From assembly GCA_017412645.1 (NCBI GenBank), contig JAFPWX010000024.1, forward strand, positions 1 through 36,122: 36,122 nt of DNA, written 5' to 3'. The notes beneath the pieces were generated by a model, which did not search any database, was not told where the DNA came from, and saw only the letters and a list, made by a program, of their open reading frames with translations. Source of the DNA: Bacteroidales bacterium (GTDB lineage Bacteria > Bacteroidota > Bacteroidia > Bacteroidales > UBA932). A program made the translations under genes and the position numbers. Of this stretch, positions 34,236-36,122 are shown piece after piece; position 1 is the stretch's first letter, and each line of letters begins with the position of its first letter.

Positions 34236-34243
34236 TATATTTG
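34236..34243 (+). promoter_or_regulatory. -7 promoter box before the dapB-like remnant
   Basis: TATATTTG fits TAnnTTTG and ends 6 nt before ATG 34250, so the ancestral gene's promoter appears intact. Confidence 0.55.
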
Positions 34244-34249
34244 TAAGTT

Positions 34250-34315
34250 ATGAAAATCGTCATTTCAGGATACGGCCGCCTGCGCGCACTCGGTGCCGTG
34301 ATAACCAGAAAGTAG
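34250..34315 (+). pseudogene. dapB: 5' remnant resembling dapB
   Basis: The 21-codon frame MKIVISGYGRLRALGAVITRK then TAG begins like 4-hydroxy-tetrahydrodipicolinate reductase (DapB), whose start is a Rossmann loop of the type MKI-V/A-I-x-GYGRMG. The M-G pair of GRMG is disturbed and the frame stops at once, and nothing downstream resembles the rest of DapB. I read it as the head of a broken gene that keeps its promoter. It could also be an unrelated short ORF. An intact dapB would be expected elsewhere, since the organism needs lysine/diaminopimelate for its wall. Confidence 0.45.
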
Positions 34316-34354: not shown

Positions 34355-34392
34355 AATAAATCGTCAAAACTATTTGTTTTTGACGATTTATT
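34355..34392. promoter_or_regulatory. 15-bp perfect inverted repeat, probable operator
   Basis: AATAAATCGTCAAAA (34355-34369) and TTTTGACGATTTATT (34378-34392) are exact inverses around an 8-nt spacer that holds the TTTG -33 element (34373-34376). It lies 31 bp before the start of a gene with an N-terminal winged HTH, so autorepression is likely. It could form a hairpin, but there is no suitable terminator context. Confidence 0.7.
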
Positions 34393-34404
34393 ATTTTATC
34401 TTCG
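34373..34404 (+). promoter_or_regulatory. Promoter of the wHTH-MNT/HEPN module
   Basis: TTTG (34373-34376) and TATCTTCG (34397-34404) are spaced 20 nt, matching the Bacteroidota -33/-7 layout. The ATG is 19 nt after the -7 box. The inverted repeat covers the -33 element. Confidence 0.6.
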
Positions 34405-34423
34405 CGGCAGTAAAGATTCGAAG

Positions 34424-35386
34424 ATGATAAACGGAATCAAAGAACAGATGCTTGCTTTGTTGGAGAGCAGAGGCGAGGTCTCAGCTGCGGAATTCAGGGC
34501 TTTAATGCCCGGTGTGCCGGAACAAACCGTTTTTTCCCGCATCCGCTCTCTTGAAAGATCCGGATTGCTCTACCAGAGCGGTCGCGGTAAATACTCCCTT
34601 GGGACAAAACCGGTATATAAAGAAGAGATATTTCCTAAAATGATGGAGTTGAGTTCCGCGCTCACGTTAGAGTTTGTTGGGGCCACGCTCTGTATATCAT
34701 CTTTGGACAAATCAAACATTTTAATCGAGACCGACAGAGTGGAGGTCGACAGAATGCTGATATTTCTACGGGAGAGGTATAAAGGTGTCTATAGCCTGCG
34801 AGAGGCTATTCGCAACAGGGAATTCTTGAAAGACGCCATCATTGTCAAACCAATAATCACCGACGCTCCGTTAATACTTGCCGAAGGATTAACCGCTCCT
34901 TCTCTGGAGAAGAAACTCGTGGACCTTATTGCGGACAGGGCGTTTTTCCATTTTGAAGACAGTGATTTGAAACGGGAGTTTCAGCGGGCGTTCGAGGTGT
35001 ACCCCATAAATATAAACAGGTTGCTGCGCTATGCCGGGAGAAGGAATGTCGCCAAAAAAGTAAAAGCTCAGATTGCCAGCCTCAATAGCGAAAGACTGGA
35101 TGCCGTTTCCATGATTCAACGAACCTTAGCCGGTCTGCCGGTACTGAGGGCATGGTTGTTCGGTTCGTGGTCGAGGATGGAAGAAAGGGAAAACAGCGAC
35201 ATAGACCTCCTTGTAGATTTCGACAAATCTGCCGGCGTGAGTCTGCTGGACCACGTTGGGTATCAGCAGGAGCTCGAATCGCTTCTGAACCGCCCGGTAG
35301 ACCTGGTAACCAACGGAACGCTCTTCCCTCACGTTGCCAAAAACGTAAACAATGATAAGTATTTAATCTATGAGAGAAGAGCTTAG
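34424..35386 (+). CDS. Winged-HTH/AbiEi-like (DUF6577-type) protein fused to MNT nucleotidyltransferase
   Basis: A 320-residue fusion. Residues 1-60 form a winged HTH (VSAAEFRALMPGVPEQTVFSRIRSLERSGLLYQSGRGKYSLG). Residues 66-215 resemble the body of AbiEi/DUF6577 antitoxin-like proteins (AIIVKPIITDAPL, SLEKKLVDLIAD, ININRLLRYAGRRN). Residues 235-320 are a minimal nucleotidyltransferase with GSWSRMEERENSDIDLLVDF, that is GS then ten residues then DxD (G247, D259, D261), and a further Asp in PVDLV. MntA enzymes of this type AMPylate and inactivate their HEPN partner. Here the HEPN gene overlaps by 17 bp. The fusion would combine operator binding with toxin modification in one antitoxin. The DUF6577 assignment is from memory of the family. 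Confidence 0.82.
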   Translation: MINGIKEQMLALLESRGEVSAAEFRALMPGVPEQTVFSRIRSLERSGLLYQSGRGKYSLGTKPVYKEEIFPKMMELSSALTLEFVGATLCISSLDKSNILIETDRVEVDRMLIFLRERYKGVYSLREAIRNREFLKDAIIVKPIITDAPLILAEGLTAPSLEKKLVDLIADRAFFHFEDSDLKREFQRAFEVYPININRLLRYAGRRNVAKKVKAQIASLNSERLDAVSMIQRTLAGLPVLRAWLFGSWSRMEERENSDIDLLVDFDKSAGVSLLDHVGYQQELESLLNRPVDLVTNGTLFPHVAKNVNNDKYLIYERRA

Positions 35387-35738
35387 GGATCCCGGTCGTC
35401 TGGAGCACATCCTCGCTTCAATAGACCGCATATACAACTTTGTTGAAGGCCATATTGCGGAGGACCTGAAAGGGGATTCGCAACTGTTTTACGCGGTAGT
35501 TAAGAATTTGGAAATAATCGGCGAGGCGGCCTATATGCTGTCTCCGGCATTTAAGGAGAATCATCCCGATACTCCCTGGAAACGCATTATTGGCCTTCGT
35601 CACATCCTGGTACACGACTACTATCAGGTCGATGCGGATGAACTATGGAATATCATCACGCGCGACCTTCAACCCCTTCAATCACAGGTAAAAGAATACC
35701 GAAACGAATTCAAAGGGGCTAGACAGACGCCTCAGTAG
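35370..35738 (+). CDS. hepT: HEPN-domain (HepT-like, DUF86) ribonuclease toxin
   Basis: A 122-residue all-helical HEPN protein. It carries the RX4HXY motif in LRHILVHDYYQV (R77, H82, Y84), the RNase active site of HepT. Other family features are the N-terminal helix LEHILASIDRIYNFVEG and the NLEIIGEAAYML helix. In characterised type VII systems the Tyr of this motif is AMPylated by MntA, and it is present here. The ATG lies inside the end of the MNT gene (17-bp overlap), so the antitoxin is translated first. The activity is inferred from the motif, not shown. Confidence 0.88.
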   Translation: MREELRDPGRLEHILASIDRIYNFVEGHIAEDLKGDSQLFYAVVKNLEIIGEAAYMLSPAFKENHPDTPWKRIIGLRHILVHDYYQVDADELWNIITRDLQPLQSQVKEYRNEFKGARQTPQ

Positions 35739-35952: not shown

Positions 35953-36023
35953 ATTTAACTACAAACACCCTGGCAAAAACGGAGGGCACTGAAAAAGTCC
36001 CTATAAAAGCCGGCTAAAAAACT

Positions 36024-36066
36024 TCGAGGAAGTATTCAATTTATTTGGATATTTCCTCGATTTTTT
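36024..36066 (+). terminator. Terminator-like hairpin inside the IS left end
   Basis: TCGAGGAAGTAT (36024-36035) pairs with ATATTTCCTCGA (36049-36060; one G-T pair), followed by TTTTTT (36061-36066). Such hairpins ahead of transposase genes block transcription entering from the host and limit transposition. Confidence 0.7.
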
Positions 36067-36095
36067 GTAACTTAACCTTTGGAAATCAAAGAGTT

Positions 36096-36122
36096 ATGTT
36101 ACCTATTCAAGGCGAAATACAG
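36096..36122 (+). CDS. Start of a probable transposase, cut by the contig end
   Basis: Only MLPIQGEIQ is visible. The call depends entirely on its place inside the putative IS end, 29 nt after the hairpin T-run. The reading frame is open to the last base. Confidence 0.35.

Follow-up and report, generated by a model that had tools for sequence, protein, structure and literature searches.

A putative toxin-antitoxin pair of a gut Bacteroidales bacterium whose predicted antitoxin joins an AbiEi-type repressor and a HepT/MntA-type nucleotidyltransferase in one chain

The window analysed here, a whole stretch of 36,122 nucleotides from a gut bacterium of the order Bacteroidales, carries what domain comparison identifies as a toxin-antitoxin pair whose antitoxin unites an AbiEi-type DNA-binding repressor and a HepT/MntA-type toxin-modifying enzyme in one chain (Table 1). 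We consider it likely that this is an autoregulated HepT/MntA-type (type VII) toxin-antitoxin module that has an AbiEi repressor in cis and a single origin. In such a module, one protein would probably both shut off its own operon and disarm an RNA-cutting toxin. That the pair is a lineage-limited variant of the HepT/MntA design is well supported by the comparisons set out below, and we strongly infer that the fusion protein acts as the antitoxin and represses its own operon.

Table 1 Features of the fusion gene, its putative operator and the HEPN gene (positions in the window)
Feature	Positions	Strand	Remarks
Operator-like palindrome AATAA-ATCGTCAAA-N10-TTTGACGAT-TTATT	34355..34392	.	overlaps promoter-like elements; 9/9 symmetric
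Promoter-like elements TTTG (34373-34376) and TATCTTCG (34397-34404)	34373..34404	+	by comparison with the consensus
Fusion antitoxin (putative), 320 aa	34424..35386	+	
Winged helix-turn-helix, residues 1-62	34424..34609	+	
AbiEi/DUF6577 body, residues 63-224	34610..35095	+	conserved NxxRLxRYAxRRG
MNT domain, residues 225-320	35096..35383	+	
GSX10DXD catalytic motif, residues 247-261	35162..35206	+	
HEPN (HepT-like) putative toxin, 122 aa	35370..35738	+	start overlaps fusion end by 17 nt
RX4HXY motif RHILVHDY, HEPN residues 77-84	35598..35621	+	

The unusual domain make-up that the earlier note had read from this one sequence was confirmed: residues 1-224 are DUF6577/AbiEi-like, a winged helix followed by the AbiEi/DUF6577 body, and the MNT domain comes after them. 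Both the catalytic GSX10DXD of the fusion and the RX4HXY of the HEPN protein are intact by sequence. The MNT part scores 42.1 bits against PF01909 (cut-off 21) and neighbours the HEPN gene; the HEPN protein scores 86.8 bits against PF01934 (cut-off 23.5), so that the HepT-like partner proposed for the fusion is indeed encoded by the gene overlapping it. The scores against the NCBIfam equivalogs lie below the cut-off of 60 (fusion against NF047752, MntA, 45.7 bits; HEPN against NF047751, HepT, 39.7 bits), and our class comparison was made through Pfam families and motifs as they are set out in passages of PMC7641770, the proteins not being filed under these equivalogs. Foldseek placed the whole chain with 6y8q at 7.4e-5 and the body alone with the same entry at an E value of 0.026, while a comparison of the body with PDB sequences gave no match; the fused domain resembles MntA/MNT models and structures. 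G247, S248, D259, D261 and D293 are invariant in 27/27 aligned fusions. GSX10DXD was found in 51/51 fusions collected, and a simple pattern for the third catalytic Asp matched 49 of the 51, with L108 and L112 unmatched.

The pair resembles HepT/MntA (type VII; SO_3166/SO_3165 of S. oneidensis) in having a PF01934 HEPN with RX4HXY, a PF01909 MNT with GSX10DXD and an MNT gene that lies upstream of the HEPN gene and overlaps it. The PADLOC candidates PDC-M05 and PDC-S09 are grouped with HepT/MntA, and the closest stand-alone MNT-HEPN pair (L033/L036) shows 58% identity in MNT and 53-54% in HEPN. Unlike the small single-domain MNT protein of about 80-150 aa that defines HepT/MntA, the fusion has 320 aa in three parts and its headless copies, which are described below, have about 256 aa; the MNT domain follows a winged helix plus AbiEi-type body in the long copies and the body by itself in the headless ones, and the operator goes with the AbiEi side. 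As in an AbiEi antitoxin, a winged helix and an AbiEi C-terminal domain are both present, but unlike AbiE (type IV, S. agalactiae) and the DUF6577-AbiEii form, the pair has no AbiEii operon partner and instead carries a C-terminal MNT domain and a downstream HEPN gene. In MenA3/MenT3 and Rv2827c (MenA4), as described in passages of PMC11375011, the toxin is a nucleotidyltransferase that is silenced by phosphorylation, whereas here the intact-motif nucleotidyltransferase lies in the putative antitoxin. A Saprospiraceae locus (L184, 1286-1888) likewise joins a DNA-binding domain to MNT, in an Xre-type helix-turn-helix-MNT fusion with an overlapping HEPN ORF downstream, but its HTH_19/HTH_3 domain is unrelated and the AbiEi body is missing, and it represents an independent fusion. 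The paREP1 family, in which PMC2701414 describes a HEPN fused to a ribbon-helix-helix, also sets a DNA-binding domain on a HEPN/MNT-like part, but it is archaeal, the joining is to HEPN, and, as far as that source describes it, the fusion contains no MNT. DNA-binding domains have thus been joined to HEPN/MNT parts more than once.

The fusion recurs. Body and MNT stand in one frame in at least 28 of 299 genomes of the same family, at 29 listed places in 4 of 25 genera, and the same listing of 299 genomes also holds weaker matches with internal stops (e.g. G045:C33 and G245:C52). When a collection of species genomes was scanned with an alignment, the first 42 (L108-L149) of the best 80 of 550 relatives matched at least part of the body together with MNT; their titles all name Bacteroidales or Bacteroidia, many of them from the ruminant gut. 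Of the 51 fusions collected altogether, 27 are long, mostly with 311-329 aa; the other 24, of about 256 aa, are headless: they lack the winged helix and begin at the position of residue 64 of the window's protein. Copies were called distinct when their MNT tails were distinct, each tail being counted once; the near-identical L023 (HEPN absent) and L024 (HEPN intact) were counted once, as intact, the partial locus L146 was excluded from trees and counts, and the start position of L013 is ambiguous. Two wider searches, one of 395 genomes across the phylum and one of 295 from the order (E limit 1e-40), with at most 5 or 7 candidate places per genome scored in each, found the fusion only in the window's own genome, so its recurrence is demonstrated within one family only. 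The expectation of a conserved fused pair thus held, in 51 copies with distinct MNT domains, but for this family and not more widely. Stand-alone DUF6577 and stand-alone MNT genes were both present among the 395 phylum genomes. An initial scan of genome contigs with a single protein gave no matches, and no published description of the fusion was found in open-licence PubMed Central papers.

The headless branch, which makes up 24 of the 51 fusions, goes beyond what the single sequence could show. Mis-called starts were considered as its source and rejected: in 21 of the 24 copies only 19-31 nt separate the end of the palindrome from the headless ATG, which leaves no space for a winged helix, the exceptions being L113, L115 and L145, where the script picked another site or start.

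The HEPN gene is intact in 32 of the 49 fusions that could be judged and decayed or absent in 17, and in 2 more it is cut by the contig end. Intact here means at least 100 aa with RX4HXY, L006 being counted as intact; assembly errors could account for some of the HEPN frameshifts. A quick tree of the fusions requires at least 14 changes of the HEPN state. Because the fusion was the search target, its own decay is unevenly sampled. In every pair scored as intact, the HEPN start overlaps the fusion end in the same relative frame. At the 30 best HEPN loci, MNT stood beside HEPN in 30/30, and a HEPN gene on its own was found at none of them. Repeated loss of HEPN, together with an MNT beside HEPN at all 30 of these loci, fits a HEPN that is the toxin and a fusion that is the antitoxin. 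The window's genome holds a second fusion on contig C12 (L001), which is headless and has lost HEPN; an SLFN_AlbA_2/HATPase gene starts 3 nt past its stop, in HEPN's place. At L012 the first few HEPN residues are kept and are followed by unrelated sequence that by eye resembles a RelB/DinJ-type antitoxin.

An operator-like palindrome stands before the fusion gene of the window. Its inverted repeats overlap promoter-like elements, and binding of the fusion protein to them, as AbiEi binds such repeats in AbiE systems, is a prediction. The Bacteroidota promoter consensus is TTTG / TAnnTTTG, and relatives carry similar promoter-like elements as judged by eye. We searched for G[GT]CAA-N8..18-TTG[CA]C in the 130 nt before the start and the first 12 nt of each gene, and found it in 24 of 27 long fusions (0.10 in dinucleotide shuffles) and 23 of 24 headless ones (0.35), that is, in 47 of the 51 fusions; the four missed have degenerate versions by eye, the weakest in L111. 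Among stand-alone DUF6577 genes the palindrome was present in 11 of 43 (0.20 in shuffles), or in 8 of 40 unselected ones after removal of L094, L106 and L107, which had been fetched for showing it, whereas stand-alone MNT genes gave 0/59 against 0.75 in shuffles. That fusions and some stand-alone DUF6577 genes share this palindrome, and none of the 59 stand-alone MNT genes does, is new. From this distribution across gene classes it follows that the GGCAA operator travels with the AbiEi-type part; an origin of the operator on the MNT-HEPN side was considered and rejected on the same 0/59. Strong inverted repeats of any kind exceeded the 95% shuffle level in 19 of 27 long fusions, 17 of 24 headless fusions and 16 of 43 stand-alone DUF6577 genes. 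Nine of the 59 stand-alone MNT genes have another inverted repeat above that level (about 3 expected), and MNT genes may sometimes carry palindromes or operators of another kind. A G-to-T change in the half-site is found in the window, L108 and L109.

An exact search for the headless operator matched in 23 of the 299 genomes, against 2 for a reversed control. Ten of the 23 places lie before headless fusions and 3 before stand-alone DUF6577 genes; the remaining 10 comprise 6 inside other ORFs, 2 that look terminator-like by eye and 2 before other ORFs (L075, L086). At position 1501 of L086, a perfect TTGGCAAT...ATTGCCAA palindrome with promoter-like elements stands directly before a 487-aa ATPase-like ORF (by eye), and the fetched stretch of L086 contains no DUF6577 match. 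In the long form the operator arms change together (7.70 versus 7.01 symmetric positions of 9, with 0 of 5000 shuffles as high), in a test of 20 distinct operators whose sites were picked partly by symmetry, which inflates the result somewhat. Such co-change is as expected for a site that would be read by two protein copies. The 13 distinct headless operators show no symmetric co-change of the arms (7.85 versus 7.85), because the headless set hardly varies. At the stand-alone DUF6577 genes of L034, L089, L090, L092, L107 and L209, inverted-repeat arms of 13 bp are separated by 15 nt; they match perfectly at five of these loci and at 12/13 positions in L090, and L092 has another half-site (...TTGACA). 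The operator may co-evolve with the winged helix.

The operator appears to be bipartite. In the headless branch (23 of 24 sequences used; the long form entered this comparison with 21 of 27) the information content is 1.66 bits per position in the half-site and 0.19 in the flank, and the half-site has thus been kept by selection despite the missing winged helix. The inner core GGCA-N15-TGCC is present in 24/24 headless fusions with the spacer fixed at 15 nt. Six outer positions behave differently: 5.00 of 6 are symmetric in long fusions (22 of 27 used) but 1.42 of 6 in headless ones (24/24), which is near the 1.75 obtained from arms mixed between loci. Stand-alone DUF6577 genes give 5.0 of 6, a value from 19 of 43 that were pre-filtered for symmetry and biased upward by it. 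None of 20000 permutations produced a long-headless difference as large, with kinship ignored and each form representing one or few lineages; the sites had been chosen partly by symmetry, alike in both forms. Only the body is shared by all three kinds of protein, the long fusions, the headless ones and the stand-alone DUF6577. The most economical inference would assign the outer arms to the winged helix and the inner core to the body, and the pattern suggests that an AbiEi-type body may itself read DNA. Since the core is kept in the headless branch, simple winged-helix repression cannot explain everything. Passages of PMC3985639 report that the AbiEi C-terminal domain is required for repression and sufficient for antitoxicity, and PMC7319586 places the positively charged DNA-binding residues of AbiEi in both domains; these domain roles are consistent with a body that reads the inner core.

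We tentatively advance a further possibility, namely that GGCA-N15-TGCC is read sequence-specifically by the body itself and the outer arms by the winged helix, and that the headless fusions still repress without any helix-turn-helix by means of a degenerate-nucleotidyltransferase fold. The antitoxin would then combine a DNA-holding pseudo-nucleotidyltransferase with an active AMPylating nucleotidyltransferase, and, if this is true, AMPylation state and operator occupancy could be coupled within one chain. A winged helix of the fused type supplied in trans was sought with a profile of ten in 13 headless genomes, with no strong match (best E 0.0018); the scan covered 16 handles in all, and the window's own genome holds the window's copy. 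Diverged DUF6577 winged helices would escape this profile, and a DNA reader in trans is conceivable in some headless genomes, e.g. G015 and G129, which have a stand-alone DUF6577 match. That the MNT domain might read the core is less likely, being disfavoured by the lack of this palindrome at all 59 stand-alone MNT genes. The stand-alone MntA of S. oneidensis is reported in PMC4621449 to bind its own promoter. Of the new design that the earlier note proposed, the fusion architecture stands, DNA binding by an MNT antitoxin had already been reported, and the suggested sensing of the toxin is conjecture. Directly upstream of the headless fusion at L022, an AbiEi/AbiEii-like pair lies on the other strand (by eye).

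Trees of the two halves point to a common history. In the body tree (51 fused and 43 stand-alone rows) a branch with support 100/99 sets the fused rows apart from the stand-alone ones, and the MNT tree (51 fused, 59 stand-alone), which has few columns, separates them with 86/87; MNT support for a single origin is moderate. The headless rows form one group in both trees (99/99 for the body, 97/97 for MNT). Together, the trees fit a single fusion and a single subsequent loss of the winged helix. Stand-alone DUF6577 genes are followed by an AbiEii-like gene in 19 of 22 cases (by eye, some cut short), and 3/3 of the following genes that were scanned match PF08843. The simplest history would be that an AbiEi/DUF6577 gene was joined once to the MNT gene of an MNT-HEPN pair, and that the winged helix was then lost a single time.

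Several other explanations have to be weighed against this reading. The contigs are metagenome-assembled and that of the window has its terminal stretch in common with another contig, so an assembly join or a mis-annotation of two separate genes had to be considered; the chance of this is negligible, as the fusion occurs in 51 copies with distinct MNT domains from many assemblies and there is no conserved internal Met ahead of the MNT domain (best column 6/27), and the fear of a unique assembly join can be laid aside. It is also very unlikely that the logic of AbiE has been kept, with a toxic fused nucleotidyltransferase restrained by the AbiEi-type body to which it is joined, and HEPN serving as an accessory or second control. 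AbiEi does normally partner a nucleotidyltransferase toxin, and the genes that follow stand-alone DUF6577 are mostly AbiEii-like, but the fused domain matches MntA/MNT models and structures, its close stand-alone relatives sit in MNT-HEPN pairs, and it is HEPN that is lost and the fusion that persists.

In 17 of the 49 copies that could be judged, the fusion persists though HEPN is decayed or gone, as would be conceivable for a useful regulator. This could also speak for a system outside the toxin-antitoxin class, in which HEPN would be a signalling RNase under the control of a regulator that carries an AMPylator and has targets elsewhere, and the second copy in the window's genome, with its SLFN_AlbA_2 gene where HEPN would be, points the same way. 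We think this unlikely, as 13 of the 23 exact headless operators precede fusions or DUF6577 genes and no wider regulon is visible among these exact matches. Comparably improbable is an anti-addiction role, in which the AbiEi-type body would in addition counteract AbiEii toxins from other elements, making the fusion an antitoxin against two classes: the AbiEi C-terminal domain that alone neutralises AbiEii (according to passages of PMC3985639) is retained in headless copies, and some genomes with fusions also hold stand-alone DUF6577 (e.g. G294, G295 and G261), but the fused bodies group apart from the stand-alone ones (100/99).

The surroundings of the pair were examined for signs of mobility. 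On the upstream side, the opposite strand carries a gene that by eye is LuxR-like, and then comes a 43-nt scar (window 34240-34282) with 93% identity to the beginning of dapB, a gene of which this genome has a 220-aa copy close to the end of contig C12 (L217). The end of the window (35976-36122) also begins contig C20 with 99% identity, and in a relative (L230) a similar stretch (85%) runs into an ORF that we take to be an IS1182-like transposase; the contig break at the window end is probably a repeat break. Plasmids gave six partial matches, each covering no more than 80% of the query, phages gave no match to the fusion, and viral contigs gave two loci that match the MNT part only. The idea of a mobile unit was not sustained, as the dapB scar and the nearby IS-like end fail to show mobility and none of the plasmids, phages or viral contigs searched carries the whole fusion.

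We therefore return to a HepT/MntA-type module with its own repressor in cis. In the S. oneidensis HepT/MntA system, passages of PMC7641770 describe a GSX10DXD enzyme that puts three AMPs on the Tyr of RX4HXY, the residue that is AMPylated in HepT/MntA pairs. By analogy, and from the intact motifs, the HEPN protein would act as an RNase toxin and the fusion protein as its antitoxin, the MNT domain transferring AMP from ATP onto the RX4HXY Tyr and so switching the toxin off. AbiEi autorepression works through inverted repeats, as reported in passages of PMC3985639 and PMC7319586, and in the fusion the winged helix and the AbiEi-type body would bind the promoter palindrome and repress the operon. 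The antitoxin would be translated first, and the overlapping start may couple translation of the toxin to that of the antitoxin. An AbiEi/DUF6577 gene would have brought its operator along when it was joined to the MNT of an MNT-HEPN pair, and HEPN would have taken the place of AbiEii. By borrowing an AbiEi repressor and its operator in cis, this family of modules would join the type IV and type VII toxin-antitoxin designs, and its headless branch makes the role of the bifunctional AbiEi C-terminal domain on DNA directly testable.
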